In this document: piece after piece, positions 1 to 34,388 of the stretch
Layout: the number at the start of each line of letters is the position of its first letter
Position numbering within the stretch: the first letter of the stretch is position 1
NCBI RefSeq assembly: GCF_000568815.1
Contig: NZ_CP007201.1
Span: 2,489,654-2,553,653 of the forward strand
DNA: 64,000 nt
Direction of reading: 5' to 3'
DNA from: Sulfurospirillum multivorans DSM 12446
Lineage (GTDB): Bacteria; Campylobacterota; Campylobacteria; Campylobacterales; Sulfurospirillaceae
Program-made: the position numbers and the translations under genes
Notes under the pieces: generated by a model
Databases searched by the model: none
What the model was told of the DNA's origin: nothing
Seen by the model: only the letters and a program-made list of their open reading frames with translations

Positions 1-813
1 TTTGCCGTTAAAGCCTCCATTAAAAAGACAGATAAACTTGAGAGCACCCGCGCCTCCGTCAATAAATATTTTAACATTCCCCTCATCTTCTCTGCAGCTC
101 TTTTAAGCTTTGCGCATGGAGCAAACGATGTCGCCAACGCTGTTGGACCCTTAGCAGGCATTTACGATGCGCTGACAACGGGACATATCTCCTCCGCTGC
201 GGGAATTCCCATCTGGGTCATGCTCCTTGGTGCATCGGGTATCGTTGTGGGACTTGGGTTGTATGGACCACGACTGATTAAAACCGTTGGCAGTGAGATC
301 ACGGAGCTTGATCAAATCCGCGCGTTTTGTGTCGCAATGTCAGCAGCCCTCACCGTCATCATCGCTTCACAAATGGGACTGCCGGTTAGCTCAACTCACA
401 TTGCCGTCGGCGCTGTTTTTGGCGTAGGCTTTTTACGTGAATACTTGTTAAGAGATCATACCAAGCTGACCGAAGAGGAGTTGAAGCAACACAAGCTTGA
501 TGATGAGATGCAAAAACTTGAAGAGTACAAGCACTCACTTGAATCGCTTGGCAAACTCAAAAAAGTCGATCCTATTTTAGTCAAAACACTCATGGGTAAA
601 ATTAATGAAGAAAAGGCTATTATTAGCCATATCTATGAAGGGGAGTTGGAGCTCAGTAAGGTCGAGAAAAAAGCGCTTAAAGCCGTTCGAAAGCATGAAC
701 TGGTGAAACGCTCTGCTCTTAAAATGATCCTCGCAGCATGGCTCATTACCGTTCCTGCTTCTGCCCTTTTAGCCGCTATTTTCTACTTTATGATTCGAGG
801 AATGCTGCTGTAG
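1..813 (+). CDS. PiT-family inorganic phosphate permease (C-terminal part, start outside window)
   Basis: The reading frame is open from base 1, so only the last 270 residues are visible. It begins in the loop before the family signature GANDVANAVGPL (about bases 112-155), followed by membrane segments and the second half-repeat signature GLPVSSTHIAVGAVFG (about 379-426). PiT proteins move phosphate, often as a metal-phosphate complex, with protons or sodium across the inner membrane. Between the last two membrane segments lies a charged, probably helical insert of about 85 residues (about bases 440-715), rich in Lys and Glu and likely cytoplasmic. It is one of three phosphate uptake systems in the window, with pstSCAB and the Na/Pi-type gene at 47.7 kb. 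The upstream promoter is out of view. Confidence 0.9.
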   Translation, partial: FAVKASIKKTDKLESTRASVNKYFNIPLIFSAALLSFAHGANDVANAVGPLAGIYDALTTGHISSAAGIPIWVMLLGASGIVVGLGLYGPRLIKTVGSEITELDQIRAFCVAMSAALTVIIASQMGLPVSSTHIAVGAVFGVGFLREYLLRDHTKLTEEELKQHKLDDEMQKLEEYKHSLESLGKLKKVDPILVKTLMGKINEEKAIISHIYEGELELSKVEKKALKAVRKHELVKRSALKMILAAWLITVPASALLAAIFYFMIRGMLL

Positions 814-3847: not shown

Positions 3848-4672
3848 TTATCCAAAACGACCCGTAATGTAGTCTTCTGTTTTTTTCTCTTTGGGATTGA
3901 CAAAGAGTGTTTTAGCATCACTGTATTCGATGAGATTGCCCATGTGAAAAAATGCGGTGTAATCTGCGATACGCGCGGCTTGTTGCATGTTGTGCGTGAC
4001 GATAACGATGGTGTAGTTTTTTTTGAGATCCAACATCAAGTTTTCAATCTTCTCGGTTGAAATCGGATCAAGTGCAGAGGTTGGCTCATCCATCAAGATA
4101 ACATCGGGCTCAACCGCAATAGCACGCGCGATACACAAACGTTGTTGCTGTCCGCCTGAGAGTGCCGTGCCTGGGTCTTTGAGTTTATCTTTAACCTCTT
4201 CCCAAAGATTGGCACCTTTGAGTGCTCGCTCGACCAACTCGTCACACTCTTTGCCTTTTTTCACGATGTCATGCATCAAAGGAGCATACGCGATGTTTTC
4301 ATAGATACTTTTTGGGAAAGGATTGGGTTGTTGAAACACCATACCAACGCGTTTTCTAACCGCAACGACGTCGATGTTTTTGTCATACACATCGTGCCCA
4401 TCAATGCCAACGAACCCTTCTACTCTACAGCTGGGAACGAGATCGTTCATACGGTTGATGCAACGTAAAAAAGTAGACTTTCCGCAACCACTCGGTCCTA
4501 TGAGTGCTGTGATTTTTTTCGTATAAACATCCATATTGATGCTATTGAGAGCCTGTTTATCGCCGTAAAAAAGATCAAGGTTTTTGACCTCTATTTTGAT
4601 ACTCTCTGCAATCTCAGGAGTCTCATCACGATCGTTAAAGGTTGTGTGAATAAAACCATTTTCCATTGTCAT
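3848..4672 (-). CDS. pstB: Phosphate ABC transporter, ATP-binding protein PstB
   Basis: ATPase subunit of the high-affinity phosphate importer. Shows Walker [10 protein letters not shown], the Q-loop region VFQQPNPFP, signature [14 protein letters not shown], Walker [14 protein letters not shown] and switch His in VTHN. The GRCINRMND and YENIAYAP-like segments and the length are typical of PstB. A GTG at 4678 is possible, but the ATG at 4672 overlaps the pstA stop as TAATG behind GAAAGAAAG, so I take 4672. Last gene of pstSCAB, with repeat copy A and a terminator directly behind. Confidence 0.97.
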
Positions 4673-5844
4673 TACCACTTTCTTTCAAATTTTTTTCTAA
4701 GGTACACGGCGCCGGCATTCATGGAAAGAAGTACCGCTAAAAGAACGATAATACCTGCAGCAGTACGCTCCAAGTAAGCTTTTTCAGGCATACCTGCCCA
4801 TGTAAAGATTTGTGCAGGAAGCACGGTTGCAGCGTCGGTAAAACTCGTCGCCGCATCGGGAACAAATGCGATCATACCGACAATAATCAAAGGTGCCGTC
4901 TCACCCAAAGCATGCGCAATGGAGATGATGGAGCCTGTCATAATGCCTGGCATCGCCAAAGGTAAAACATGATCACGCACGATCTGCCATTTGGTCAGAC
5001 CCAGCCCAAAACCCGCTTGGCGAATGCTTGCAGGAACCGATTTGAGAGATGCTTTAGAGCTTACAATGATGACCGGCAAACACATGAGTGCCAAGGTCAT
5101 ACCACCTACCAACGGTGAACTCCTTGGAACCCCAAAGAAGTTGATAAAAATTGCCAAGCCTAAAAGACCAAACAAAATGGAAGGAATCGCGGCAAGGTTG
5201 TTGATATTCACCTCAATGATCTGCGTCCAACGATTATCAGGAGCAAACTCTTCGAGATAAATGGCTGTCATAACGCCAATTGGAAACGCAATCAACATCG
5301 TGACGATAATGGTCATCACCGTTCCAATGATGGAAGAGTAGATACCCGAATTTTCAGGAATTTTTGAATCGCCGGTGGTGAGAAAAATGGTGTTAAACTT
5401 CAGTTCAACCAGCCCTTTTTCTTTGAGTTCATCCACATAGGCACGTTCATTTGGCTTGGTTCGTGACTCTTTGCCTTTGACATATTGGTCAACCTCAGAG
5501 TTGGCGAGTACCCAGTGTTCTTGTGTCGTATTCATCCATGTTGGATTTTGTTTGACTTGATTGGGAATGTCTCTTAGCCATGCGCGACTGATAATTTTAA
5601 GGTTTTTACCTTTAACCGCAACATAAGGATTTTCCAAAACCTCTTCATTGATGGTGACTTCCATTTTGACATAGGTTTGAAAAAAAGCGGGATAGCCGGA
5701 TCTTCCTAAATCCACCAAAAAGAAGATCAAAAAAGAGACAGAGAAGACAATCGCCATAATCGTAGCCCCTTTAAAAAGAGCTGCTTTTTGGTTACGTCTT
5801 TTGATCTGTGGTATGTAAAAATAGTTGTCGTTTTGCTCTTTCAT
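4672..5844 (-). CDS. pstA: Phosphate ABC transporter permease PstA
   Basis: 390 residues; inner-membrane permease pairing with PstC. The transport domain is in the C-terminal half, with the binding-protein-dependent permease loop ([24 protein letters not shown]) and ALGETAPL. It is about 90 residues longer than the common PstA. After the first membrane helix (about residues 26-47) comes a hydrophilic stretch of about 115 residues (containing [12 protein letters not shown] and [22 protein letters not shown]) before the second helix, presumably periplasmic. The start has AAAGGG upstream. Overlaps pstB by one base and lies 9 bp behind pstC. Confidence 0.95.
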
Positions 5845-5853
5845 ATCTGCCCT

Positions 5854-7110
5854 TTAAAGCGTTGAAACTTTGTATTTTCTATGGAACTTACGAATGGTAC
5901 TGACCGAGATAATGTTAATGACCAATGTCACCACAAAAAGCACCAAACCCAGCGCAAAGGCTGAGAGGGTGAGTGGGTTGTTAAACTCTTGATCACCCGT
6001 AAGCGATTCAACGATTTTAACCGTGACGGTGGTCATATCTTCCAGTGGATTCCACGTTAAGTTTGGTCTTAAACCTGCTGCCATAACAACGATCATGGTC
6101 TCTCCAAGGGCTCGTGAGACACCAAGGAGGATCGAAGCGATGATACCTGGCATCGCAGAAGGGAGAACCACAAAACGAATCGTCTCTGCTTTGTTCATAC
6201 CAAGTGCATACGCACCATTGCGCATATTTTGAGGTACAGAGCTGATAACATCATCGGAGAGGGAAGAGATAAACGGGATAATCATAATCCCCATGATAAT
6301 ACCTGAAGAGAGTGCGTTTTGGTACTGTGCTTCGATGCCAAAGACCGCAAAAAATTTAACCACAAGCGGAGCGACCGTAAGGGCAGCAAAGAATCCATAC
6401 ACAACGGTTGGGATACCCGCTAAAATCTCTAAAAAAGGCTTCACTTGAGATCTAACACTTGAACTGGCATACTCAGACATAAAAATCGCAGACAGCAGTC
6501 CCATCGGAATGGCAACCACCATCGCAATAGCGGTGATGTAAAAAGTTCCTGCAAAAATAGGCACGGCGCCAAATTTAGCTTCCGCCGCGTTCGCATCTGC
6601 TCTACCCGCACCCTCTAAAAAGGCGGTATCGGGTGACCACTCTAAACCAAAGATGAAGTGAAAGAAACTTTGCATTTGGAAGAAATGAAGCGCTTCAAAG
6701 ATGATAGAAAGCAAGATACCAAAGGTTGTTAGCACCGAAACCAATGAAGCGGTGAAGAGCATTCCCTTAATCAAATCTTCTACCAAGTCACGCGCTTTGG
6801 TCGTACCTTGGATATTTTTAATCAAGAGTCCAAGGGTGAGTGCTCCCACACCAAGGGCTGCTGCTAAAAGCATCGTTGGGGGAATGGCGTGAACGCCAAA
6901 AAGATATAAAAATACTCCACAAACCCCAATCGTAATGATCGGAAGTCCTGTATAAAGAGCTCCAAACCAACCGTATTGGTCAGGTTGAGAATGCATTTTA
7001 ATACCTTGTGAACGAATCGTGATGGCTTTTTGTCGGCCTAAAACATAGCCTAGAAACATTAGTGGAACAAGTCCACCAAAAAAGATAAGATAGAGTGTTT
7101 GCGTACTCAC
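5854..7110 (-). CDS. pstC: Phosphate ABC transporter permease PstC
   Basis: 418 residues; first permease of the Pst importer. Membrane segments near the N-terminus are followed by the permease domain with SEYASSSVRSQVKPFLEILAG, PTVVYGFFAAL and the EAA-type loop GAYALGMNKAETIRFVVLP, then SRALGETMIV. The N-terminal region before the transport domain is longer than in E. coli PstC, with two or three extra membrane helices. Start codon is GTG (complement of 7108-7110) with AAAGGA about 8 bp upstream. A hairpin between pstS and this gene may lower its expression relative to pstS. Confidence 0.95.
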   Translation of the reverse strand: MSTQTLYLIFFGGLVPLMFLGYVLGRQKAITIRSQGIKMHSQPDQYGWFGALYTGLPIITIGVCGVFLYLFGVHAIPPTMLLAAALGVGALTLGLLIKNIQGTTKARDLVEDLIKGMLFTASLVSVLTTFGILLSIIFEALHFFQMQSFFHFIFGLEWSPDTAFLEGAGRADANAAEAKFGAVPIFAGTFYITAIAMVVAIPMGLLSAIFMSEYASSSVRSQVKPFLEILAGIPTVVYGFFAALTVAPLVVKFFAVFGIEAQYQNALSSGIIMGIMIIPFISSLSDDVISSVPQNMRNGAYALGMNKAETIRFVVLPSAMPGIIASILLGVSRALGETMIVVMAAGLRPNLTWNPLEDMTTVTVKIVESLTGDQEFNNPLTLSAFALGLVLFVVTLVINIISVSTIRKFHRKYKVSTL

Positions 7111-7173: not shown

Positions 7174-8214
7174 TTATGGAAGAATGGTATTTTTCTTAAC
7201 CATCTCTTCAGTGAGTTTAGTCTTAGCTAAAACAGCTGCTTGTACTTTTTTAAGATCTCCCTCGGTCATTGGAACCAAACCGATTGTTTTAAGTACACCT
7301 TTTGTACCGATCATTTTTGCATCAACATACAATTTCAAGAATTCATCCATCCCTTTAACTTGAGAACGGTGTGAGTTTTTAGCGTAGATATAAAGGCTTC
7401 TTGAGATTGGGTATTTTGCAGATGAAATCGTATCAAATGCTGGTTCAACGCTATCCACAGATGCGCCATTGATTTTATCGCCATTCTCTTCAAGGAAGCT
7501 GTAACCAAAGATACCAAATGCAGCAGTGTCTTTCGTCAATTTTTGAACGATTAGGTTGTCATTTTCACCTGCTGGAACAAACACACCGTCTTGGCGTACT
7601 GCTTTGTATTTGCCTTTTTTGTCGCCATACGCTTCAAATTTCTTTGAGCTGTGCTCCATAACCATTTCATCAAATGAGTCACGTGTTCCTGATGTGGTTG
7701 GAGGACCGTAAACGGTAATTTTTCTATTTGGAAGAGCCGCATCGATCTCATTCCATGTTTTGTATGGGTTTTTAATGAGTGACTTACCATCTTTACTTGG
7801 TACTTCTTCAGCAAGTGCTAAGAACATTTGCTCACGTGTAAAGTTGATTTTGCCATTGGTTTTAGATTGCGCAAACGCGATACCATCAAATCCTACCATC
7901 ATACCCGTGATGTCTGTGACGCCATTCTCTAAACATGTTTTGTATTCAGACGCTTTCATAGGGCGTGAAGCATTGGTAAAATCAGGTGTATCAAGACCAT
8001 TACCTGAACAAAAAATCTTCATACCACCACCAGTTCCTGTTGACTCAACGACAGGTGTCGCATTGCCTGTTGTTGCTTTAAACTCTTCAGCGACATAGCT
8101 GGTAAAAGGATACACGGTAGATGATCCAACAATTTTAATCTGATCTCTTGCACTCGCAGTTACACTTAAAGCTGCAACACTTAAAAGGGCAATTGCACAT
8201 GTTTTGATAGTCAT
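7174..8214 (-). CDS. pstS: Phosphate-binding protein PstS
   Basis: 346 residues; periplasmic phosphate receptor of the Pst importer. Signal peptide MTIKTCAIALLSVAALSVTA, then the phosphate-binding pattern IVGSSTVYPF, STGTGGGMKIFCSG, and TTSGTRDSF. An upstream in-frame ATG at 8226 lies inside the ribosome site. GGAG sits 7 bp before the ATG at 8214, which also gives a proper signal peptide, so I start there. Its promoter has the Pho-type operator described at 8247-8278. First gene of pstSCAB. Confidence 0.96.
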   Translation of the reverse strand: MTIKTCAIALLSVAALSVTASARDQIKIVGSSTVYPFTSYVAEEFKATTGNATPVVESTGTGGGMKIFCSGNGLDTPDFTNASRPMKASEYKTCLENGVTDITGMMVGFDGIAFAQSKTNGKINFTREQMFLALAEEVPSKDGKSLIKNPYKTWNEIDAALPNRKITVYGPPTTSGTRDSFDEMVMEHSSKKFEAYGDKKGKYKAVRQDGVFVPAGENDNLIVQKLTKDTAAFGIFGYSFLEENGDKINGASVDSVEPAFDTISSAKYPISRSLYIYAKNSHRSQVKGMDEFLKLYVDAKMIGTKGVLKTIGLVPMTEGDLKKVQAAVLAKTKLTEEMVKKNTILP

Positions 8215-8246
8215 TGTATACTCCATTTCTAAAATTTGGTAATGTC

Positions 8247-8278
8247 ATTGTAAGGGAATTTGATTACAACTTGGTTAC
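8247..8278 (-). promoter_or_regulatory. Pho-type operator and promoter of pstSCAB
   Basis: Read on the minus strand: GTAACCAAGTT (8278-8268), GTAATCAAATT (8267-8257), CCCT, then -10 TACAAT (8252-8247). The two 11-bp direct repeats take the place of a -35 box, as with PhoB-activated promoters. The same layout with identical spacing occurs before the olsF-like, phoU and phoH-like genes. The regulator is presumably the PhoB-type protein at 21249-21920. It differs from the GTTTC-based box described for Campylobacter jejuni PhosR. Confidence 0.8.
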
Positions 8279-8376
8279 GAATTGTTTCTCAATAGAGGAT
8301 TAAAATGCTTCGTTATTATCATTTTTTTGGGAAGAGCCCGTTATAATTCTAAGCTAACTTGCTACAAGGAATTTTT

Positions 8377-9978
8377 ATGCTTCAATCTATCCGTGCTAAA
8401 CTCTTATTTCTCTTTGTTATTATTTTTGTAGGAACACTAGGACTCGGCTATTTACTCGTTTCAAATACCCTAAAAGCGGAAGATGCCGTCGAAAAAGTAC
8501 AACATGCGGGCGACATTGCTACGTACACAAATGAACTCTTAGTCCACGCAAGAGGACACCAAATCACCTTCAATCCTAAAATGACGGAGGCGTACTATAA
8601 AGCCTATGACAACCTTCTCAAAGCCGCACAAGAGCTTGAACCAACACTGCATAATCAAGATAATATTACACTTTTAGAGCAGATTAAAAAAGTAGCTGCC
8701 GAGGTGAAACTCTCCAGTGATGAACGTTTTGTTTTAGTCGATAAATACAAAGAAGCGATTAATTCACCTGAGTTTCTAAACTCTCCCGAGGGCAAGCGAT
8801 TTACGGTGATCACCAATGAAGGGCGTACGAGCTTTATTACCCTCTTAGACTCTTCGAAGCAACTGACGAAAGCCATCGAAGCGTATGAAGATCAAACCCT
8901 AGATCAAGCCAATATAGTTGGTGTTATTATGGCGTTGTTGGTCTTAGTTGCTTCAAGTTTTATCTTTTGGTACGTCTCAGGTCAGATCAGAAGCTCCATT
9001 CAAACCGCGTCTAAAGAGTGTGAATACATTGGCAATGCTAAAGATTTAAGCCATAGCATCAACACCAAAGGAAATGATGAAATCACCTCGATGATGGCAA
9101 TCGTCAATACCCTACTTTCACAACTGCGCACTGCCATTGATGGGGCAAAACGTACGGCATTAGAAAATGCTGCCGTTGCTGAAGAGCTCTCATCCACCTC
9201 ACTTCAAATCGGAAAACGAACCGAAGAGGCCGCTAAAGAGGTCGATCATGCACTGGATTCTACGAAAAAAGTCGCGACCATCTTGCATACGAGCGAAGAG
9301 AGTTCAAACCGTTCTGAGTCGGTCATTCAAAATGTAGCCGATGGGCTGAGCAACGCTTCTCAAGAGGTGCTCTGCGTCTCCAATGATCTTCAAACCATCG
9401 TGGTCAACCAAACCGATCTTTCAAGCCGCATTGAGCATCTCGATCAAGAAGTGACCCAAGTGCAACAAGTGCTCTCCGTCATATCTGATATTGCAGAGCA
9501 AACCAATTTGCTAGCCCTCAATGCTGCCATCGAAGCAGCGCGTGCGGGAGAACACGGTCGTGGATTTGCCGTTGTGGCTGATGAAGTACGAAAATTGGCA
9601 GAACGCACCCAAAAAAGCTTGGTGGAGAGCAACGCAACCGTCGCTGTCATCACCCAATCCGTGGCGACCTCATCCGAGCTCATGAAAAGCAATGCGCAAG
9701 AGATTCAAGCGCTGGGGCAACGAGCTGAAGAGACGCAAAAACTGATGCTTAAAACCGTCTCCACGATGAATGAAGCCAAAACATTGGCACAAAACAGCGC
9801 CAAAGATGCTAAAGAAGGAAGCGCTCAAGCTTCTGAAATGTTGGGGCGCATTGATGCGATTCATCAAATTTCTGCGACCAATGCCAGAAGTGTTGAAGAG
9901 ATCGCGAGTGCAGCAGAGCATCTTTCAAAACTCTCTAACACTTTAAGCATTGCGCTTGCAGCCTTTAAAACCACCTAA
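8377..9978 (+). CDS. Methyl-accepting chemotaxis protein (helical sensor domain), paralogue of 17039-18643
   Basis: 533 residues. Membrane helix at about 8-28, a periplasmic helical region of about 150 residues, second helix at about 180-203, a HAMP-like segment, then the cytoplasmic signalling hairpin with the conserved tip [19 protein letters not shown] near residue 373. It feeds CheA/CheW to steer motility; the ligand is unknown. ACAAGGA precedes ATG 8377; a TTG at 8359 is less likely. TATAAT at 8342 is a good -10. The cytoplasmic half is nearly identical in pattern to the protein at 17039, so they arose by duplication. The dioxygenase gene follows after 9 bp. Confidence 0.93.
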
Positions 9979-12424: not shown

Positions 12425-13831
12425 ATGAATAAGAATATTATTAACGGCCTTCTTGTCTTGTTTGTAGGTGCTTTACTTTGGTTTATACCTGCACCTGATG
12501 GAATAACTGCGCAAGGGTGGCATCTTTTTGCTATCTTTGTGGCTACGATTTTAGGATTTATCTTGCAGCCTCTACCCATGGGGGCTCTTGCATTTATTTC
12601 CATTACACTGACTATCCTTTTCAACGTTTTAAAACCTTCTGAAGCACTCTCTGGCTTTGGCAATAACACCATTTGGTTGATTGCTTCAGCCTTCATTTTT
12701 GCTAAAGGTTTTATTGTCACAGGCTTTGGCCGAAGAATTGCTTATATCGTTATAAAAATGATTGGAGATAGCACACTTAAGCTTGGTTATGCTGTAGTTA
12801 TTAGTGATCTCATCATGTCGCCAGCGATGCCATCAAGCGGTGCTAGAGCGGGTGGTGTGCTATATCCTATTGTTAGAAGTCTTGCTACTGCTTTAAAATC
12901 TGAACCAAATGATGGAACAAACCGAAAAGCTGGTAGCTTTTTGATGCAAATTTTGTATCAAGGTAATACCATTACCAATGCAATGTTTCTAACCTCAATG
13001 GCAGCCAATCCACTAATCGCAACGTTGGCACAAAAAGCACTTGGTATAGAAATATCATGGGGGTTATGGGCACTTGGGGCTTGTGTACCAGGCATTGTTT
13101 CTTTGATCATTATTCCTTATTTTCTCTACAAAGTGTATCCTCCTGAAGTGAAAGAGTTTCCTGAAGGTAAAGAGATAGCTAAAGCAGAACTGGCCAAAAT
13201 GGGACCTCTTTCTTTTGGTGAAAAAATAATCTGTGGTGTTTTTGTGGGTGCGCTTGCTTTATGGTCAACTTCACAGCTTACAGGCATTAATGCAACCGTT
13301 GTGGCCATGCTAGGTGTCAGTGTAATGGTCATCACGAAAACATTGGATTGGAAAGATGTTTTAGAAGAAAAAGGTGCGTGGGATACGCTTATTTGGATGG
13401 GAACATTAATGACATTGGCTGGATTTTTAACTAAATTTGGGCTTATTGGCTTATTTTCAAAAGCAGTAAGTGCTCAAGTTACAGGTATCTCTTGGCCTCT
13501 AGCTATGACCATCCTGATCATTGTCTATGTCTATTCACATTATGCTTTTGCAAGTTTAACAGCTCACATAACAGCTATGTATATAGCATTTTGTACTGTA
13601 ATGGTTGCTGCTGGAGCGCCTGCTTATCTTGTAGCACTTTCAATGGCGTATATGTCTAACATTTGTATGTCGATTACCCATTACGGTGGAGCGCCTGCGC
13701 CGATTATCTTTGGTGCTGGGTATGTTGATCAAGCAACATGGTGGAAACTAGGGTTTTACACGTCTATCATCAATCTGATCGTTTGGGTTGGTATTGGTGG
13801 CGTTTGGTGGAAAGTCATCGGACTTTGGTAA
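12425..13831 (+). CDS. DASS-family anion (dicarboxylate/tricarboxylate) transporter
   Basis: 468 residues with about a dozen membrane helices. Divalent anion:sodium symporter family (SLC13/CitT/DIT1-like): N-terminal [20 protein letters not shown], the first half-site [16 protein letters not shown] with the SNT-like motif replaced by MPSSGAR, and the C-terminal [20 protein letters not shown] as in 2-oxoglutarate/malate-type carriers. It imports or exchanges a di- or tricarboxylate in the inner membrane. It lies 18 bp behind the lyase with GGGG before ATG, so both likely handle the same substrate. A strong hairpin follows. Confidence 0.9.
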
Positions 13832-13839
13832 TCAACACA

Positions 13840-13872
13840 GATTGGAGCAGAATATTCTTTTCTGCTCCAATC
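13840..13872 (+). terminator. Strong hairpin between transporter and chemoreceptor
   Basis: GATTGGAGCAGAA (13840-13852) is perfectly complementary to TTCTGCTCCAATC (13860-13872), a 13-bp stem with a 7-base loop, followed only by TTTAC. It probably ends most lyase-transporter transcripts or stabilises their 3' end, with partial read-through into the chemoreceptor. Confidence 0.75.
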
Positions 13873-13898
13873 TTTACAAAAAAAGGGGAAAGACCGTG

Positions 13899-15794
13899 AT
13901 GAATGTTGGATTTAAACAACGAATTATTTTGGTTGCAAGTGCGTGTCTTGTTATATCTCTGCTTATTTTTGCTCTGATTAGTTTCTACGAAATTAAACGT
14001 AATTTAAGAGGCGAAATCATTGATAAACAGATGCAATCGATGGCAACACTTCAAACGGATCTTAATGGATGGTTTACCTCCCAAGTCAAAGTGATCACAG
14101 CACTTGCTAAAGAGCTGAATATTCACTCTTCTTTAAGTAAAGAAGAGACAATGCCACTTCTTAAAATGGCAAATGACAGTATCAATGCGGAAACAACCTA
14201 CTTTGGGTTGAACGATGGCACGATGATCTATGAAAATGGCAAAACGCCATCAGCGGGGTATGACCCACGAACACGTCCTTGGTTTACGGAAGCTATGGGC
14301 ACAACAACCACGTCCATTATGGCACCTTTTATGGGATCTAGTAGCAAAAAATTGACCATCTGCATCATCTCGCCCATTATTCGAAATGGCGTTAAAGAAG
14401 GTGCTGTTTCAACCAATATCTTAATAGACGATGCGATGAAAAAAGTGTATGCTACAACATTTGATGGCGGATATGCTTTTATTATGGATAAAGCGGGTCA
14501 ATTCGTCATCCATCCAGACAAAAGTGTCATCAATAAAAAGTTCCAAGAGTTATCCCCTGCCCTTAATGATGCCTACAAATATATCACCGCTCATGACAAA
14601 GGCTCGGTTGAATATACGATCAATGGCGAAGATAAAATTCTTACGTTTGGAAAACTTGAAAATGGTTGGATTGTGGCATTATCGATCGATACAAAAGTTG
14701 CATTTTCTTTTTTAGATCAACTCATTACCATGTTTGTGATCATCGGCTTTGTTATGACTGTTTTATCGGTTTTAGTGCTGCTCGGTGTCTTAAAAATACA
14801 ATTTCAACCCCTTACCAGACTTAACCAACTCATCGAAAATCTCTCCAGTAGCGAGGGGGATTTGACCCAACGACTGGAAATCAAAAACAAACACGATGAA
14901 ATAGGCATTATGAGCCATAATATCAATGCGTTTATCGAAAAAATTCACGGTATGATCATCGCCTCAAAAGTGAGCAGTAGTGAAAATGCTTCTGTCTCCC
15001 ATGAACTCTCCAACACCTCACTCGAAGTGGGTAAGCGTGCTGAAGAAGAAGCCATTATTATCACAAAGGCGACCACACAAGCCATCACCTTGAAAAGTTA
15101 TCTAGAGACATCGGTGGAAAATGCCAAGACATCCAGCAATGAAGTCAGTGATGTTGTCGAGAATCTTCAACGTGTGAGCACGGAAGTTAGTAATCTCTCA
15201 ACTTTGTTACAAGAGAGTGGTCACCGCGAAGTTGTCTTATCTGAAAAATTAAATACGGTCAGTCTCAATACAGCGGAGATCAAAAACATCTTAGGAGTGA
15301 TCAACGATATTGCTGATCAGACCAATTTGTTAGCACTCAATGCCGCCATTGAAGCAGCACGTGCAGGAGAGCATGGAAGGGGCTTTGCGGTTGTTGCGGA
15401 TGAAGTGCGAAAGCTCGCGGAGCGAACCCAAAAAAGCTTAACCGAAATCAATGCAACCATCAATGTCGTCGTTCAATCGATTGTTGATGTGAGTGGCGAA
15501 ATGAACACCAATTCGCAAGAGCTTAATAAAATCACCGATACATCTATCGCGGTACAGAACAATGTTTTTGAGGTCATGAAGACGTTAAACAACGCTGTAA
15601 CAAATGCCAATAAAACCATTCATGATTATATCGATACCGCCAGTAGGATCGGTCTTATTACCGAAGATATATCCAAGATCAATGAAATTTCAAGCATCAA
15701 CGTGCGCAGTGTAGAAGAGATAGCCTCAGCAGCGGAGCATCTCAATAAAATGACTGAAAATCTCAATATTGAGCTTGGGAAATTTAAATCGTAG
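13899..15794 (+). CDS. Methyl-accepting chemotaxis protein with dCache sensor domain
   Basis: 631 residues. Membrane helix at about 9-30, then a dCache_1-type periplasmic domain containing [12 protein letters not shown], the ligand-pocket pattern of Cache receptors for amino or organic acids, second helix at about 275-297, HAMP, and MCP signalling domain with tip [19 protein letters not shown] near residue 470. The frame extends upstream, but ATG 13899 with GGGGAAAG upstream is the sensible start. Lying between the DASS transporter and the regulator, it may sense the carboxylate used by the cassette. Confidence 0.93.
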
Positions 15795-17038: not shown

Positions 17039-18643
17039 ATGTTACAGACAATCCGCGCTAAACTCATGTTTTTATTGGTGATTATTTTGATCGGCACTGT
17101 GGGGCTCAGTTACCTGCTGATTTCACATGCAGAAGATGCCGAAATAGCCGTTAAAAAAGTGCAACATATCGGGAAACTTCCTCGCTACACCTCAGAGCTC
17201 TTGATGTACTCCAGAGGCTACCAAATTTCGTATGCACCGCAATTTATCGAAAGCTATGTCCAATCGCAAAAGAAGCTTGATGAGCATATTAACGAACTTC
17301 GACCACTGCTGAGTGCGGAAAAAGATATCGCTCTTTTAAATCTCATCCAAAAAGGAGCGGATGATTTTAGAGTCAGTGCTATGCCTCGCTTTGAGATGCT
17401 TAAGCAGTATAAAAATGAGACCAGTTCTGCCGAATTTATTGCTACACCTGAGGGAAAGAAATTTATGGAACTGACCAACAAAGGACGTGACGCATTTATT
17501 TCCATCTCTAAAAATTCCGATGCTCTCTCTCAAGATATTGAACAAGAAGAGCACGAACTCCTCGACGGTGCCAAAAAAATTGGGATGCTCATGGCACTGC
17601 TTGTTTCAGGCGTCACAGCGTTTCTTTTCTGGGTGATTGCGACTAAAATTAAAAATTCACTCTCCAACGCTGCCAAAGAGTGTGACTATATCGGAAAAAA
17701 TAAAGACCTCAGCCACCCTATCGAAATCACAGGCAATGATGAGATCGCAAACATCATGCGCACCGTCAACACGCTTTTCGAGCAGTTACGCATCGCCATC
17801 GATGATGCCAAGCGTACCGCGATGGAAAATGCCGCTGTTGCCGAAGAGCTCTCCTCAACATCGCTTCAAATTGGAAAACGCACCGAAGAGACCGATCAAG
17901 AGGTCGATCATGCGGTCAATACCACCAAAAAAGTTGCTAGTATTTTACATGACAGTGAAGAAAATGCGGAACATGCAGGCACTATAATGCAAAATGTGGC
18001 GAATGAGCTGAATAACGCTTCCAATGAAGTCCTTGCCGTATCGACGGATCTTCAAACCGTTGTCGTTAACCAAACCGATCTCTCTGCGCGTTTAGAGCAA
18101 CTTGATCAAGAAGTCTCCCAAGTGCAACAAGTGCTCTTAGTCATTTCAGACATTGCCGAACAGACCAATCTTTTAGCGCTCAATGCCGCCATCGAAGCAG
18201 CGCGTGCAGGCGATCAAGGTCGTGGCTTTGCCGTCGTCGCCGATGAAGTACGCAAACTAGCAGAACGCACTCAAAAAAGTCTTGTGGAGAGTAACTCCAC
18301 CGTAGCGGTCATCACCCAATCGGTCAATACAACGTCCGATCTCATGAAGAAAAATGCTAAAGAGATTCAATCCCTCGGACACCGCGCTGAAAACACGCAA
18401 CAGTTGATGCTTAAAACAGTGAGTAGCATGAATGAAACCGCAACCGTTGCAGAGGGTGCAGCACAAGAAGCCAAACGTGGCAGCGTGGAAGCCAATGCCA
18501 TGATAGGACGTGTCAATACCATCCATAAACTCACCTCAACCAACGCCAGAAGCGTCGAAGAGATCGCGAGTGCGGCAGAACACCTCGCCAAACTCTCCAC
18601 CAATCTCAGCAACGCCCTCTCCTCTTTTAAAACAAACGTATAA
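17039..18643 (+). CDS. Methyl-accepting chemotaxis protein (helical sensor domain), paralogue of 8377-9978
   Basis: 534 residues with the same plan as the receptor at 8377: membrane helix at 8-28, helical periplasmic domain of about 155 residues, second helix near 183-206, HAMP, signalling hairpin with tip [19 protein letters not shown] near residue 372. The shared stretch [20 protein letters not shown] and the C-terminal [15 protein letters not shown] show recent duplication; the periplasmic halves have diverged more, so ligands may differ. AAGGGG lies before the ATG. The 193-bp AT-rich region upstream carries a TATAAT-like -10 near 16999. Confidence 0.93.
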
Positions 18644-18650
18644 TCCACAA

Positions 18651-18678
18651 AAGCCAAGCCTCTATTTAGGGCTGGCTT
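18651..18678. terminator. Bidirectional terminator between chemoreceptor and olsF-like gene
   Basis: AAGCCAAGCC and GGGCTGGCTT form an imperfect stem around the loop TCTATTTA, between two convergent genes. It overlaps the end of the minus-strand acyltransferase gene. Confidence 0.5.
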
Positions 18679-20389
18679 CCCCTTTGATATAGCGCGTCTT
18701 TTTGGCTTCTTTGATTTTGGTGATGTCCACTAAAATAAAGCTATCCACACAGTTAGCGAACTCTTTGTCGATGTTAAAATCTAAAAAGGAAATTCCACCC
18801 TCTTCACAGAGTTCCGTGTACTGTTTATACAGCGTTGGCACACTAAGATCCATGTGTGAGAGTTGCTCTTTTAAAACGGCAAAGTCCTCTTTATAATCAT
18901 CGCCTTTGAAAAAAGAGAGTGCTTCTTCTTTCTCTAACTTACTCATAAAAAATGAGTTTCGCGCGAGCACCAAGGATTGTGCTGAACCAAAATAAAGGGA
19001 ATAGAAGGTGATGATGAGATTTTTGGCGATTTTAGGATAAACATCGCTCAAACTCACAGGACCGTACATGTAACGAATATGCGGATTTTTAAACAAATAC
19101 GCCCCAATGCCTTGCCAGAGATAATCAAGGGCACGTGTGCCCCAATAGCGTGGCTGAACAAAACTTCGCCCTAGCTCAATGGAGTTGTGCAAATAAGGCT
19201 CAAATTCAGGGGCAAATTCAAAAAGGCTGTGTGAATAAAACCCTTCCATTCCAAAATACTCACTGATATAATTGGCTTCGCCAATACGATACGCGCCCAC
19301 GACTTCAAGCTCGTCATCGTCCCATAACACGATGTGTTTATAGTGTTTATCAAACGCATCCACATCGCGTTTTCCACCTGTTCCCTCTTCCACTTTACGA
19401 AACGTAAACTCTCGCAAACGTCCTATCTCTTTCATCAAAATAGAACCTGCTTCATACTCATACAGATAGATTTTTTTGCCATCACTCGTTTGACCTAAAA
19501 GGGTGGATTTTTTAAGTTCAGCGCGTATGGCTTTGCGCTCTTCAGGATGCGCGATCGCTCTTTGGGTCGCAAAAATTCCCTTTTTACCTTTACTGATTTT
19601 ATAAAGATGTTTTTTCAAAAGCGTAATCAAGGTTGTGTCGCTAAAGCCTGAGCTTTGAAGTGTTTTATAGGTGATCATCTCGCCAATTTTAAAATTAATC
19701 ACTTTGGAGCGTTTTTTAAACATCTCGCTGGCAAGTAAAAAGGTCGATATTTTTTTGTTGATCATCGAAAGGGTGTAAAAAAGTGGCGAATTTTTCGCAT
19801 CAATAAACACCGGTAAAAGAGGTGAATTGGTCTTTTGCGCAAACTTTAAAAAGCCTTTTTTCCATTTCGTATCTTTAATGCCTGTTGGCTGAGCCCGTGA
19901 GACTTCACCGGAAGGAAAGACGATAAGTGCTTCGTCACGCTCAAGCGCATCGTACACTTTTTTGATCGACTCTTTCGCCGTTGCACCTGTAAGATTATCG
20001 ATGGGAATGATCAGTCCGCTGAGCGGTTCAATCTGCATCAACACATCATTTGCGAGCACTTTCACATCGCTTCGTATCTCTTTGATCAGCGAGATAAGTG
20101 CCAACGCGTCCAGTGCGCCTAACGGGTGATTTGCGATGATGATGATGCGACCAGAAGAAGGGATATTGGTTTTATCTTTATTAGAGATGGTGTAGCCAAA
20201 GTTAAAATACTCCAGCACCGCTTCGACAAAATCAAACCCACGATACGCCTCTCCGTGCATTAAAAAATCGTTAATCTCATCTTGATGAAGTAGCTTTTTC
20301 AGGAGATAAACAACGAAATTTCTCACAATACTCGGATAATAGACAATGCTAGGGTACTTGAGGCTTAACGTTTTTTCTACATCTACCAT
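18662..20389 (-). CDS. olsF: OlsF-like bifunctional acyltransferase (PlsC-type domain + OlsB/GNAT-like domain), ornithine-lipid synthesis
   Basis: 575 residues in two domains. The N-terminal half is a lysophospholipid-acyltransferase domain with the histidine/aspartate motif NHPLGALD (H88, D94; five residues between) and the FPEGT-equivalent FPSGE (158-162). The C-terminal part, from about residue 315, is an OlsB/hemolysin-type N-acyltransferase domain (GRLREFTFRKVEEG, DVDAFDKHYKHIVLWD, VVGAYRIG, ELGRSFVQPRYWG). This order matches OlsF proteins, which make both acyl bonds of ornithine lipid, a phosphorus-free membrane lipid. AAAGGAGC precedes the ATG. The promoter carries the Pho-type operator also found at pstS, which fits replacement of phospholipids in phosphate starvation. 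Activity is inferred, not shown. Confidence 0.82.
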   Translation of the reverse strand: MVDVEKTLSLKYPSIVYYPSIVRNFVVYLLKKLLHQDEINDFLMHGEAYRGFDFVEAVLEYFNFGYTISNKDKTNIPSSGRIIIIANHPLGALDALALISLIKEIRSDVKVLANDVLMQIEPLSGLIIPIDNLTGATAKESIKKVYDALERDEALIVFPSGEVSRAQPTGIKDTKWKKGFLKFAQKTNSPLLPVFIDAKNSPLFYTLSMINKKISTFLLASEMFKKRSKVINFKIGEMITYKTLQSSGFSDTTLITLLKKHLYKISKGKKGIFATQRAIAHPEERKAIRAELKKSTLLGQTSDGKKIYLYEYEAGSILMKEIGRLREFTFRKVEEGTGGKRDVDAFDKHYKHIVLWDDDELEVVGAYRIGEANYISEYFGMEGFYSHSLFEFAPEFEPYLHNSIELGRSFVQPRYWGTRALDYLWQGIGAYLFKNPHIRYMYGPVSLSDVYPKIAKNLIITFYSLYFGSAQSLVLARNSFFMSKLEKEEALSFFKGDDYKEDFAVLKEQLSHMDLSVPTLYKQYTELCEEGGISFLDFNIDKEFANCVDSFILVDITKIKEAKKTRYIKGEASPK

Positions 20390-20421: not shown

Positions 20422-20453
20422 ATTATATGGTGAGCTGATTACGATGTGGTAAC
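20422..20453 (-). promoter_or_regulatory. Pho-type operator and promoter of the olsF-like gene
   Basis: Read on the minus strand: GTTACCACATC (20453-20443), GTAATCAGCTC (20442-20432), ACCA, -10 TATAAT (20427-20422). The repeat period (11 bp) and distance to the -10 match those before pstS, phoU and the phoH-like gene. Only 17 bp separate it from the divergent phoU operator. Confidence 0.8.
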
Positions 20454-20470
20454 GCTGAGAGGGTTTTTAT

Positions 20471-20502
20471 GTTACCATATTGTAATGATTTCAAACTACA
20501 AT
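20471..20502 (+). promoter_or_regulatory. Pho-type operator and promoter of phoU and the two-component genes
   Basis: GTTACCATATT (20471-20481), GTAATGATTTC (20482-20492), AAAC, -10 TACAAT (20497-20502). Same layout and spacing as before pstS, olsF-like and phoH-like genes. As it drives the regulator operon itself, it implies positive autoregulation. Confidence 0.8.
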
Positions 20503-20529: not shown

Positions 20530-21198
20530 ATGCTTCAAAAATATGAAGAGAGACTTATTGAGATCAAACGAATGTTGATTGATTTAGGTTCTGAAATCTC
20601 TATGGCAAGTGAAAAAGCTCTTTGCGGTATGGAAAGTTTAGATATATCTCGTTTTGACTCGGCAAAAACCCTTCTTAAAAACATTGAAAACAGAGCCAAT
20701 GCTATTGATAATGAAATCGTTGTTGCACTCGCCCTTTTTGGACCGGAAGCAAAAGATTTACGTAAGATGGTTGCGTATCTTAAAATCACCAATGAACTGG
20801 TCAAGATTGCTGAAAACATTCGTGGGTTTAGCAAACGTATGGCACAACATCTTCAAGGCGATGTACCGTTTGTCTCTTTGCATGAATACTCCACGCATTT
20901 GTGTAAAACATCGATTAAAGCGGTCACCTTAGCCATCAGCACGATCGAAATCGGTGATCCTGAGACACTGGAAGACATCTACCGAAGGGTTAAAGTTGAA
21001 GAGAGCAAGAGCGATGATCTTTACTCGATTTTGGAGAAAAACATCCTCAGTGACATTGCAAAAATGATCGACCAATCGGCTGATTTTATCCAAATTCTTA
21101 GCACCATGCGAAAGTTGGAACGTATGGCAGATCGTAGTGTAAATATTGTACAATTAATGATCTTCGCACGTGTGGGTGGAGAGATGAAGACGTATTAA
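20530..21198 (+). CDS. phoU: Phosphate signalling regulator PhoU
   Basis: 222 residues with the two three-helix repeats of PhoU: first repeat FDSAKTLLKNIENRANAIDN with VVALALFGPEAKDLR, second with the matching VKVEESKSDDLYSIL and LERMADRSVNIVQLM. PhoU damps the PhoR-type kinase when phosphate is plentiful and modulates the Pst transporter. Ribosome site AAGGAAAA before the ATG. First gene of phoU-phoB-phoR-type operon, with its own Pho-type promoter, divergent from the olsF-like gene. Confidence 0.93.
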   Translation: MLQKYEERLIEIKRMLIDLGSEISMASEKALCGMESLDISRFDSAKTLLKNIENRANAIDNEIVVALALFGPEAKDLRKMVAYLKITNELVKIAENIRGFSKRMAQHLQGDVPFVSLHEYSTHLCKTSIKAVTLAISTIEIGDPETLEDIYRRVKVEESKSDDLYSILEKNILSDIAKMIDQSADFIQILSTMRKLERMADRSVNIVQLMIFARVGGEMKTY

Positions 21199-21248: not shown

Positions 21249-21920
21249 ATGAAACAGACTATTTTGATTATTGAAGATGAAGAAGATTTACTCGAACTCT
21301 TAGAGTACCATCTTCAAAAAGAGGGTTACGAAACACTGGGATTTTTAAGCAGTAGAAATGTTGAAAAATGCCTCCAAGAAGAACCAATTGATCTTTTAAT
21401 CGTGGATCGTAACCTCCCTGGGGTTGAAGGAAGTGAATTTGTAGAGAACTTGCGTAAGAAAGGGTTCTCTCAAGCGGTCATTTTTGTGACCGCAAAAAAC
21501 AGTGATACCCACATCGAAGAGGGATTTTTAAGAGGGTGCGATGACTACGTCACGAAGCCTTACAACATGAAAGAGCTCTTGCTTCGCATCAAAGCTATCT
21601 TAGCACGCACCGCACCTACAAGCAAAAATACGCTCTCGTATCGCGATCTCATCTTAGACCTTGAAGCGCACCGCTTGTCTGTCAATGACAAAGATGTGGA
21701 GCTTACAAAGCTGGAGTTTGATCTGCTCAAAACAATGATAGAAAATAAAACCGCTGTTTTAAGCCGCGAATTTTTGCTCGAACATGTTTGGAAAAACGAT
21801 GAATTTTTTCAAGATAAAACGGTCAATGTCGCCATCAATCGCCTCAAACAAAAGATAGATCCAACCAAAGAGAAGGAGTACATCAAATCCATCTGGGGAG
21901 TAGGATATAGCTTATGCTAA
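21249..21920 (+). CDS. phoB: PhoB-type response regulator (OmpR/PhoB family)
   Basis: 223 residues. Receiver domain: acidic pair in IIEDEEDLL, phosphoacceptor Asp in LIVDRNLPG, VTAKN and the Lys of TKPYN. The winged helix is at about residues 130-223 (LTKLEFDLLKTMIEN, VAINRLKQKID, IWGVGYSL). Its place behind phoU and the Pho-type repeats before four nearby operons make phosphate control the likely role. The gene overlaps the following kinase gene by 7 bp. The symbol is by role and context; relatives in Campylobacter are called PhosR. Confidence 0.88.
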   Translation: MKQTILIIEDEEDLLELLEYHLQKEGYETLGFLSSRNVEKCLQEEPIDLLIVDRNLPGVEGSEFVENLRKKGFSQAVIFVTAKNSDTHIEEGFLRGCDDYVTKPYNMKELLLRIKAILARTAPTSKNTLSYRDLILDLEAHRLSVNDKDVELTKLEFDLLKTMIENKTAVLSREFLLEHVWKNDEFFQDKTVNVAINRLKQKIDPTKEKEYIKSIWGVGYSLC

Positions 21921-23314
21921 TGCTTCATCAACATGTGACCAGAGCGCTTCTCACCCTTTTTCTTGGCACCTTATTTCTTTCGGGCTTGGTGAGTTATTTT
22001 ACAATTAAAAGTGACAACATAGAACGTTACCAAATGGAGCTTGAATCGCACATCAAGATCATCAAGCACCAACTTCCGCATATCGAAGACTTTGAAGCTT
22101 TCGCGAAGATGATCAAAGAGAGTTCGAACATTCGTTTTACCCTCATTGATGAAGCAGGTGTCGTCCTTGTCGATAGCGACAAAGACAATGAAACGATGGA
22201 CAACCACTCACACCGCGAAGAGATCATCAAAGCTCAAAAAGTAGAATTTGCCCATGCGGTGCGTTTTTCTGATTCGGTGCAGAGTAACTTTTTGTATGTG
22301 GCGCATCGGTTTAAACTAAATGATCGCATCCTTTTTTTACGTCTTGCCACGAATATTGATACGATTATGTACACCTTCTACAACCTTTGGATCAAACTGA
22401 CCATTATCTTTGGTCTCAACATCTTAGCAGGACTGTATGGCGCGTATGTGTTCAGTCAAAAAGTTCGCCACGAAATCGATAAGATCATCGAAAATCTCCA
22501 ACAAATTGCCGACAAAGACTACAAAATCAGCCTCTCGTCTCACTTCTGTTTGGAGTTCTTTGAGATTGCCAATTACCTTAAAAAACTGGCAGCCAAATTG
22601 GAAAAACGTGCCAAGCAAAAACGCAAATACACCGCCAAGATCAAGCTCATAAGCCAACAAAGAAGCGACGTTATCTCTGCTATTAGCCATGAGTTTAAAA
22701 ACCCTATTGCGTCCATTATGGGCTATGCGCAAACACTTCTGGATGATCCGCTTGCGAACCCGCAAATTAGGGAGCGCTTTTTAGGTAAAATCGTTCAAAA
22801 TGGACAAAAAATCTCTGGAATGATCGACCGACTCACACTGACAACCAAGTTTGAAAATGGTGACTTTAACACGCAAAACAGTACGTTTGATGTGGTCAAA
22901 ATGACGCAAGATATCGCGCAAAACTTTAGGGAAAAACACCACAATCGCCCCATTGTCTGCACCCTTCCTGAGACATTTCCCATTACGGCTGATCGCACGA
23001 TGATCGAAATCGTCATCTCCAATCTCATCGACAACGCACTCAAATACTCCGACGATACCATCGAGATTTACCTCACAGAGGGATCTTTACATGTAAAAGA
23101 TAATGGCGTTGGCATTAAGGAAGAAGAGATCGAAAAAGTAACCCAAAAATTCTACCGCTCCAACTCGCATTCGTGGGACAATTCGATGGGACTTGGGCTT
23201 GCATTGGTGAATTACATCCTCAAGATGCACAACTCCATGCTTGAAATACAAAGTAGCTTAGGCGTAGGATCTGATTTTTCATTTAAATTACCTTCAAACA
23301 ATGTTGTATTATGA
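21914..23314 (+). CDS. phoR: PhoR-type sensor histidine kinase
   Basis: 466 residues. Membrane helix at about 10-32, a periplasmic domain of about 120 residues, second helix at about 158-180, HAMP-like linker, dimerisation helix with phosphoacceptor His in ISHEFKNPIASIMG, and ATPase domain with N box NLIDNALKYS, KDNGVGIKEEE and GLGLALV. Overlaps the response regulator, so the two are a cognate pair. A TTACATGTAA palindrome sits inside the ATPase domain, coding LHVK in GSLHVKDNGVG just where this family expects variable sequence before DNG. Confidence 0.9.
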   Translation: MLMLHQHVTRALLTLFLGTLFLSGLVSYFTIKSDNIERYQMELESHIKIIKHQLPHIEDFEAFAKMIKESSNIRFTLIDEAGVVLVDSDKDNETMDNHSHREEIIKAQKVEFAHAVRFSDSVQSNFLYVAHRFKLNDRILFLRLATNIDTIMYTFYNLWIKLTIIFGLNILAGLYGAYVFSQKVRHEIDKIIENLQQIADKDYKISLSSHFCLEFFEIANYLKKLAAKLEKRAKQKRKYTAKIKLISQQRSDVISAISHEFKNPIASIMGYAQTLLDDPLANPQIRERFLGKIVQNGQKISGMIDRLTLTTKFENGDFNTQNSTFDVVKMTQDIAQNFREKHHNRPIVCTLPETFPITADRTMIEIVISNLIDNALKYSDDTIEIYLTEGSLHVKDNGVGIKEEEIEKVTQKFYRSNSHSWDNSMGLGLALVNYILKMHNSMLEIQSSLGVGSDFSFKLPSNNVVL

Positions 23315-32183: not shown

Positions 32184-32941
32184 CGTATAATCCTAAATTC
32201 ACCCTCGTAGGTTTCAACAATCGCCGTACACGACTCGACCCAATCCCCGCAGTTCAGGTACTTGATGCCATCAATTTCCCGTATCTCTGCTTTGTGAATA
32301 TGCCCGCAAATGACCCCATCAAAGTGGTGACGCTTGGCATGTTCGCTCAAAATCGACTCAAAATCGGTAATAAACGAAACCGAGCTTTTCACGTGATCTT
32401 TGACGTATTTAGAGAGTGACCAGTGGCTTTGGTAGCGCAGTGTTTTACGCCACCAGTTGAGGATTTGGTTGACATTCAGCAAAAGGTCATACCCCATGTC
32501 GCCCAAAACAGCGAGCCACCGTTTGGTCATTGTGACTGAGTCAAAAAAATCACCGTGCGTGATGTAGAAACGCTCATGGTTCAAACTCACATACTCACAC
32601 TCATCAACTACGATGAGCGAATCGCCCAAACCCAGTGGCAAAAATGAGCGTAAAAAGTCATCATGGTTTCCTGTGATGTAAAAGACATTGGTGCCTTTTC
32701 GGGCTTTCCTGAGCACTTTTTGGATCACGTCGGAGTGCGACTGCGCCCATTTGAGTTTGCGTTTCATCGCCCAGCCATCGATGACATCACCGACCAAATA
32801 GAGATTTTCACACTGCGTTCTTCGTAAAAACTCCAAAAGCTCATGCGCTTGTGAAAAACGTGTGCCCAAGTGAAGATCGGAGATAAAAATCGAACGAAAA
32901 GCCATCACATCGTCTTCATGGGCAAACGAATATTTCGTCAT
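32168..32941 (-). CDS. Calcineurin-like phosphoesterase, PlcP (phospholipase C) / LpxH-like
   Basis: 257 residues. Metal-site motifs in order: SDLHLG (21-26), GDVIDGW (51-57), GNHDD (91-95), HGD (129-131), GHIH (213-216). Often annotated as UDP-2,3-diacylglucosamine diphosphatase. However, the pattern RKARKGTNVFYITGNHDDFL and the ending LNCGDWVESCTAIVE are, as I recall the family, those of PlcP, a phospholipase C that strips head groups from phospholipids under phosphate limitation in Sinorhizobium. Its place between phoH-like and patatin genes under a Pho-type promoter supports PlcP. Its start ATGA overlaps the phoH-like stop. LpxH function is not excluded. Confidence 0.8.
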   Translation of the reverse strand: MTKYSFAHEDDVMAFRSIFISDLHLGTRFSQAHELLEFLRRTQCENLYLVGDVIDGWAMKRKLKWAQSHSDVIQKVLRKARKGTNVFYITGNHDDFLRSFLPLGLGDSLIVVDECEYVSLNHERFYITHGDFFDSVTMTKRWLAVLGDMGYDLLLNVNQILNWWRKTLRYQSHWSLSKYVKDHVKSSVSFITDFESILSEHAKRHHFDGVICGHIHKAEIREIDGIKYLNCGDWVESCTAIVETYEGEFRIIRWLGH

Positions 32942-34335
32942 TTGTGTGTGTCGCCATCCCCAAAAATTTCATCGGCAAAGTGTGAAAACTTACCGCGTAC
33001 CGACTTGTCAAGCTCAATCGCAAAGAGTGAGATGTGCGTCTGCTCTTTTTTGGTTTGCTTAAGAAGCGAAGTCAAACCGTTGTTAAAGCGGTTGAGGTAC
33101 ATGTTATCAATTTGGCGGTTTGAGCCGATCACAATCGCTTTACAGTTATTATCCAAACGCGATAAAATCAGCTGTGTCGTGTTATTCGAGCTGTTTTGCC
33201 ACTCATCTAAGATGACGATGGCATTACTGAGCGTTCGTCCCCTCGCCTCACCTGGCCAGAGTTTTTCGATGTTGTACTTGGTGATGAGCTCTTGCACTTT
33301 TTTCTCGATTGCCACTTGCGGTTCTTGCGTGTTATCACGTTTTTTGATGCGCTTTTTGGCGATAAATTCAAGCGTGTCATACAGCGCCATATTGTAAATT
33401 CTAAATTTTTCATCATTGCCTGAGAGATAACCGACATCCGCCCCTTTATCAACACTTTCGATGGAGTTTCGCACGTAGACAATCTTCTCGTAACTGCCTT
33501 TGGTCACCAAACGCATCGCCGCAACAAACGCCATCAAGGTTTTTCCACTTCCTGCGCGTGCGTCGATGACGTGAATGTCGTACATATTGGAAAGAAGCGC
33601 TTTCATAAAGAATTTTTGTTTGAGATTGATGGGTTTAATCTCCAAGCCTCTAAAATCAAGCTCTTCGCTGAGCATGTGAATGATGCCACCCGGAGAGATA
33701 ATCGCATGATCCGAATTGCCATCCGAACTGATAAATTCATAGCAGTAGTTTCCACTTTTGTACTCAGGGTCGTACTCGCTAATCAGCTTTTTATCGAGGG
33801 TATTAAACAGTGCTGAGTCAACAGGAAGCTGTTTGACAAACTGAAACTCAGGTACGTCGCTTCGATCTTCACGCAAGGACTCGACCGTGACATTGTAGAA
33901 AAGTCCAAACATACGCGCATACACATCTAAAGAGAGAAAAATAACTTTGTAATCAGGGTAGTATTCTTGTGCACCTGAAGCGACTTCAAGGATGCGTTTG
34001 TCATTAGATTCGTTGATAAATTGCGAGTCTATGTCTGAGGTGTAGTGCGTCTTAGAGAAAAGATGGATCGCCGTGTTCTCTTCATAGCGCATCTTGACAA
34101 CGCGATATGGCTCCCCACTGTCGACTTCGACTACGGTACATGACGCCAGCATTCTGGCAAAACTTCTGGCTTGATAACCTAGTTCCGTGAAGTTCTTTTT
34201 AAAATCTTCCAGCTCAATGAGCACCGTTTCAGGAATAACAATGATGTTGTTTCCACCATCACACAACTCTTTGATAAAATTGGTATTGTGCAAGATGATG
34301 TTGGTATCGAGCACATAAACTTTGTTGACTGACAT
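32938..34335 (-). CDS. PhoH-like ATPase with N-terminal PIN domain (PhoH2/YlaK type)
   Basis: 465 residues. PIN ribonuclease domain at about 1-140 (VLDTNIILH, with Asp at the active site, and later NDKRILEVA), then the PhoH helicase-like ATPase domain with Walker A DARAGSGKTLMA and Walker B NAIVILDEWQN. PhoH2 proteins are RNA helicase/RNases. The open frame runs to 34371, but AAAGGAAG before the ATG at 34335 and the family N-terminus favour 34335. The Pho-type operator directly upstream makes it the head of a phosphate-responsive operon with the PlcP-like and patatin genes. Confidence 0.9.
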   Translation of the reverse strand: MSVNKVYVLDTNIILHNTNFIKELCDGGNNIIVIPETVLIELEDFKKNFTELGYQARSFARMLASCTVVEVDSGEPYRVVKMRYEENTAIHLFSKTHYTSDIDSQFINESNDKRILEVASGAQEYYPDYKVIFLSLDVYARMFGLFYNVTVESLREDRSDVPEFQFVKQLPVDSALFNTLDKKLISEYDPEYKSGNYCYEFISSDGNSDHAIISPGGIIHMLSEELDFRGLEIKPINLKQKFFMKALLSNMYDIHVIDARAGSGKTLMAFVAAMRLVTKGSYEKIVYVRNSIESVDKGADVGYLSGNDEKFRIYNMALYDTLEFIAKKRIKKRDNTQEPQVAIEKKVQELITKYNIEKLWPGEARGRTLSNAIVILDEWQNSSNNTTQLILSRLDNNCKAIVIGSNRQIDNMYLNRFNNGLTSLLKQTKKEQTHISLFAIELDKSVRGKFSHFADEIFGDGDTHK

Positions 34336-34356: not shown

Positions 34357-34388
34357 ATTGTAATAAAACATTATATCAACTTGGTAAC
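34357..34388 (-). promoter_or_regulatory. Pho-type operator and promoter of the phoH-like operon
   Basis: Read on the minus strand: GTTACCAAGTT (34388-34378), then a weaker second repeat GATATAATGTT (34377-34367), TTAT, -10 TACAAT (34362-34357). The first repeat and the distance to the -10 equal those before pstS. The weaker second half suggests lower affinity or later induction. Confidence 0.7.

Follow-up and report, generated by a model that had tools for sequence, protein, structure and literature searches.

A predicted Pho operator of fixed geometry before phosphate genes of Sulfurospirillum multivorans and other Campylobacterales

Phosphate genes and promoter sites in the window

The window, i.e. 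the whole stretch of 64,000 nucleotides of Sulfurospirillum multivorans DSM 12446 that was analysed, contains the following genes of interest.

1-813, plus strand: 3' part of pit (PiT/PHO4 transporter), the start of which lies left of the window
3848-7110, minus strand: pstC, pstA and pstB, downstream of pstS (TIGR02138, TIGR00974 and TIGR00972, above cut-off)
7174-8226, minus strand: pstS, phosphate-binding protein (Pfam PBP_like_2; best model TIGR02136, below its cut-off)
18662-20389, minus strand: olsF, bifunctional ornithine-lipid synthase (NCBIfam NF052615, 836 bits, cut-off 620)
20530-21198, plus strand: phoU (Pfam PhoU, 1.4e-13)
21249-21920, plus strand: phosR, response regulator of OmpR/PhoB type and presumed operator-binding protein (Pfam Response_reg and Trans_reg_C)
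21914-23314, plus strand: phosS, sensor histidine kinase of PhoR type (Pfam HisKA and HATPase_c; best NCBIfam model phoR_proteo, below cut-off)
32938-34335, minus strand: phoH-like gene (Pfam PhoH and PIN_4)

The phoU gene shares 97% identity with its counterpart in Sulfurospirillum sp. SCADC. Three methyl-accepting chemotaxis genes (8359-9978, 13788-15794 and 17039-18643) lie between pst and olsF/phoU, a clustering that phosphate taxis might explain. The start of the phoH-like gene is taken as 34335 (MSVNKVY, after GGAAGTGGG), because the listed open reading frame start, 34371, falls inside the operator. The promoter sites are as follows.

8247-8278, minus strand: predicted Pho box and -10 of pstSCAB; GTAACC AAGTT GTAAT CAAATTCCCT TACAAT; exact match
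20422-20453, minus strand: predicted Pho box for olsF, with its -10, arranged divergently to the phoU operator; exact match
20471-20502, plus strand: predicted Pho box and -10 of the phoU-phosR-phosS operon; GTTACC ATATT GTAAT GATTTCAAAC TACAAT; exact match
34357-34388, minus strand: probable, degenerate Pho box of the phoH-like gene; GTTACC AAGTT GATAT AATGTTTTAT TACAAT; two mismatches

The distance from the start of the first repeat to the -10 is exactly 26 bp at pstS, olsF, phoU and phoH, which confirms both the positions and the spacing proposed in a sequence-only reading of this DNA; the GTAAT second repeat, assigned there to three of the four sites, is exact at pstS, olsF and phoU, with GATAT at phoH. 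As expected of a Pho box, the sites stand before phosphate-starvation genes and, as in a tandem operator, comprise two direct repeats with an 11-bp period, degenerate only at phoH.

The combination of first repeat and -10 occurs four times in the window, compared with 0.05 times expected from dinucleotide shuffles. Pattern scans of the 3.18-Mb genome give three exact matches to GTWACC-N5-GTAAT-N10-TANAAT, i.e. those of pstS, olsF and phoU, all before Pho genes as had been predicted; the many exact matches before unrelated genes that had been named as counter-evidence did not appear genome-wide. When the second repeat is omitted, the pattern is no commoner than its reversed control (9 matches compared with 11), so it is the second repeat that carries the specificity; a first repeat with a -10 is thus insufficient, and phoH is a weak member in need of other support. 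The proposed four-member set stands for pstS, olsF and phoU, with phoH, which has both of its mismatches in the second repeat, a probable member only.

A weight matrix trained on 80 sites, all from other families, ranks the same sites as the top four when run on the window (pstS 30.1, phoU 28.9, olsF 21.0 and phoH 16.0), the next score being 6.7 at a position overlapping pstS; because its training sites were picked by pattern, the matrix allows little deviation in the fixed columns. Without the -10, pstS, phoU and olsF remain the top three and phoH drops to 25th. Operator pairs lacking a -10 are not enriched in the S. multivorans genome (6, compared with 5 for the reversed control), so binding sites outside this promoter frame are not callable by sequence alone. 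Several candidates were set aside, including a weak class in the same genome downstream of which no open reading frame of 60 amino acids begins (L005, L038 and L051), weak matches that are coding or unrelated (L272 and L277), and porins carrying just half of the signal (L014 and L273). L004, L006-L009 and L011 were checked for a phosphate context and none was seen.

Conservation and distribution of the operator

The operator is present, with at most one mismatch, in 23 of 24 Sulfurospirillum genomes, that of S. multivorans included, giving 80 matches compared with 8 for the reversed control. By alignment, the phoU box is kept in all 20 distinct sequences from the genus. The olsF and phoU boxes face apart and are separated by 17 bp in 17 of these 20 sequences and by 16 bp in one; in G019 the gap is larger, with both boxes intact. 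In G015 (L040) the olsF box is lost and the phoU box retained, olsF itself being present only as scrambled pieces on a fragmented contig; faulty assembly of this fragmented genome may also account for this. The half-site spellings at pstS are swapped in four congeners, GTAATC preceding GTAACC, so the two repeats can be treated as one element, GTWAYC.

In 200 genomes of the order, GTWAYC-N5-GTAAY-N10-TANAAT has 122 matches, compared with 2 for the reversed control, and 87 of these fall outside the genus. Among the latter, 54 precede pstS, pstC, pstB, phoU, phosR, olsF or a PiT gene, and the others lie upstream of genes for porin-like, phosphoesterase, solute-binding or EAL-domain proteins or are unassigned. 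The operator also precedes olsF in three further genera, of which two belong to other families, so that in several genera phosphate probably controls ornithine-lipid synthesis directly. When the spacer is allowed to vary between 2 and 22 nt, it is 10 nt long in 60 of 94 matches and every other value occurs at most four times, i.e. the element keeps a strict -35 position at a fixed distance from the -10. Among 85 sites, six have a third phased half-site upstream, at -11, with no other offset seen more than once; in 69 the first half-site follows a T. The EAL-domain genes (c-di-GMP phosphodiesterase type) are preceded by the box at L104, L115 and L250, in more than one genus, and such boxes may link phosphate to c-di-GMP.

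The suggestion that the operator is peculiar to this lineage is not supported in that form: the same operator precedes Pho genes throughout much of the order. Judged by these matches, T-GTWAYC in two copies is common to much of the Campylobacterales, an order from which, it seems, no box other than that of Campylobacter had been reported; such a definition of the operator makes the Pho regulons, and so an order-wide phosphate response, readable from these genomes. The GTWAYC operator sequence seems undescribed in the literature searched, in which the string GTTTCNAAAANGTTTC was not found.

It is very improbable that the sites are ordinary σ70 promoters in which the repeats are incidental -35 or extended elements that PhosR does not bind. 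Each site does contain a -10, and an inner TATAAT in the phoH block is possibly the true one there; however, the spaced repeat pair is nearly confined to Pho genes in S. multivorans and lies mostly before them order-wide, its half-sites swap spelling yet hold phase, and in G015 it is the scrambled remnant of olsF, and not phoU, that has no box.

The phoH site is a separate case. Its upstream region was available in 19 genomes of the genus (S. multivorans included), all of which keep the block TTTTGTTAC(C/G)AAG(T/C)TG(A/T)TATAAT, one of them starting CTGTTAC. The inner TATAAT of this block sits at the second half-site and could be the real -10; for this fourth site only it is quite possible, if short of an even chance, that GTTACC is a constrained piece of a plain promoter and that there is no Pho box. 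The operator-only matrix score, 25th in the window where about 20 such scores are expected by chance, favours that view, as does the lack of any phoH among the order-wide matches. On the other hand, the TANAAT at +26 is likewise kept in 19/19, although the intervening bases vary, and in one clade in which the first half-site of phoH is GTTACG the second becomes GTTAT. The phoH-like gene is retained as a probable further target of PhosR.

PhosR and the relation to known Pho boxes

The PhoB-type regulator that had been noticed in the window is PhosR. Its best NCBIfam models are those of PhoB, but its scores are below their cut-offs (178.5 bits for TIGR02154, cut-off 296.2; 179.2 bits for NF053854, cut-off 270); because it does not reach these equivalog cut-offs, the regulator is named PhosR and described as PhoB-like. 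An orthologue with at least 45% identity and a clear gap to paralogues is present in 30/30 genomes of the order, one in each and two in G205. Several OmpR-family paralogues are encoded in the genome, so the operator could in principle be read by one of them and not by PhosR. This has only marginally better prospects than the ordinary-promoter explanation, given the presence of PhosR in all 30 genomes, the location of phosR within an operon under the box, a box before a phosR gene in another family (L262), and differences in the PhosR helix that track operator spelling. These findings support a Pho-type operator of fixed geometry, and its assignment to the PhoB-type regulator encoded in the window, with binding by PhosR predicted.

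The PhoB residues reported to make base contacts in both half-sites are Arg201, with G, and Thr194/Val197, with T; Arg219 contacts bases between the half-sites (PMC3973317). Among the PhosR orthologues compared, the equivalent of Arg201 is invariant and the equivalents of Thr194 and Val197 are kept outside Campylobacter (with one S194), Val197 being kept in users of GTWAYC; Campylobacter PhosR has I197, T200 and R203. At the position of PhoB Arg219, Sulfurospirillum and some other genera have W. The second set of recognition-helix sequences lacks three loci, one of which, L218, is in the first set. It is plausible, from this comparison, that the constant GT is read by the constant residues, and the variable remainder of the half-site by the variable ones.

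A box of the GTTTC type was reportedly described for C. jejuni PhosR by Wosten et al. in 2006; it is known here via later papers and from pstS promoters of the C. jejuni group. The latter, identified by an exact match to the published C. jejuni pstS primer (PMC6250842), have GTTTCC-AAAAT-GTTTCC...TAAACT with a 26-bp offset, and in 150 genomes of the C. jejuni family GTTTCC-N5-GTTTC-N10-TAAACT gives 28 matches compared with 4 in controls. The operator described here has GTWAYC in place of the GTTTC half-site, i.e. one base is changed per half-site, and the -10 also differs, being TAAACT in the C. jejuni group and TANAAT here. By contrast, the orthologous regulator (46-47% identity, with a clear gap to paralogues), the pstS target, the 11-bp period, the 26-bp offset and the C at position 6 are shared. 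Since the pstS promoters there share its geometry, the operator is the same kind of box as that of C. jejuni, and the proposal that it differs in kind is not supported. The recognition helices are NIAxTRLR in Campylobacter and NVAx(N/K)RLK here, so that GTWAYC and GTTTCC, with their regulators, form a natural variant pair with few recognition-helix differences, in which a change of specificity is testable.

The likeness extends to E. coli, where the phoA promoter has TGTCAT-AAAGT-TGTCAC with TATAGT at 26 bp, i.e. GTCAT-N6-GTCAC-N10-TATAGT, with identical spacing. The PhoB boxes of E. coli (CTGTCAT repeats, including those of the phoA and pst promoters) share the T before GT, the 11-bp period and, in some promoters, extra phased repeats; they differ in the bases after GT, which are CAT in E. 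coli and WAYC here, and PhoB is 31% identical to PhosR over its length. Fixed geometry is to be expected of a Pho box, because structural models of activated promoters are said to require strict spacing (PMC10294691). In Vibrio cholerae, according to work cited in PMC11828411, olsF is PhoBR-dependent and ornithine-lipid synthesis Pho-regulated. Pho control of olsF, predicted here, and a replacement lipid at low phosphate are common to both; V. cholerae, however, belongs to a different phylum, and here olsF is divergent from phoU-phosRS, with the two boxes 17 bp apart.

Proposed mechanism and further candidate targets

The preferred reading, to which we assign a probability of about 0.9, is that the sites are Pho boxes through which PhosR would switch on pstSCAB, olsF and the phoU operon at low phosphate. 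On present evidence, three promoters appear secure as members of a Pho operator that is known in kind, with phoH probable. From the observed sequence, geometry, conservation, gene context and parallel change in the regulator, we infer phosphorylation, binding and activation as follows. PhosS would phosphorylate PhosR at low phosphate, and two PhosR molecules would then bind head to tail on two 11-bp half-sites, T-GTWAYC, that take the place of a -35 element; PhosR would thereby keep σ70 RNA polymerase at the -10, whose first base lies 26 bp downstream of that of the first half-site. Activation of pstSCAB would provide phosphate uptake, that of olsF a phosphorus-free membrane lipid, and that of phoU-phosR-phosS autoregulation; the phoH-like gene would probably be a further target.

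Beyond the four sites of the window, the genome holds additional candidates, predicted from their sequences, before pit, a phnD-like gene and ppk1.

C1:2488828-2488845 of the genome, outside the window and some 810-830 bp to the left of its first base: Pho box in reverse orientation within the pit leader (L285); GTAATC-N5-GTAAT
C1:2663678-2663709 of the genome: Pho box before a PhnD-like (phosphonate) binding protein, the fifth good one in this genome (L276); GTAATC-N5-GTAATC with TAAAGT at the -10 position; matrix score 24.7
C1:2154531-2154562 of the genome: Pho-box-like promoter of the polyphosphate kinase gene ppk1 (L268); GTTACC-N5-ATAAC, the second half-site one base off, with TAAAAT; matrix score 24.0

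The pit box lies on the opposite strand, 13 bp before the pit start codon and after a probable -10. Eleven copies from the genus were examined: seven match perfectly, at a distance of 12-15 bp from the start codon in six and of 24 bp in the seventh; three others carry a single mismatch, and in the last the box is lost. Its place in the leader, and the absence from most copies of a -10 serving the opposite direction, make a repression site the best reading and suggest that PhosR represses pit through it. PhoB is described as an activator or a repressor depending on site position, although no PhoB control of E. coli pitB was found (PMC10294691). A broader proposal, which we consider evenly poised, combines a single Campylobacterales operator code, T-GTWAYC twice, that would have been rewritten to GTTTCC in Campylobacteraceae with the helix changes V197I, N/K200T and K203R (PhoB numbering), with repression of the low-affinity transporter pit by Sulfurospirillum PhosR via the reverse leader box.

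A related box (e.g. GTTACCAATTCGCAATGAACTT..TAAAAT) is present at six loci in congeners (L099, L100, L101, L102, L103 and L105) before a membrane protein, the scanned piece of which gave no Pfam match. The protein looks like the N-terminus of a chemoreceptor, and it is possible that it is a phosphate-regulated sensor.
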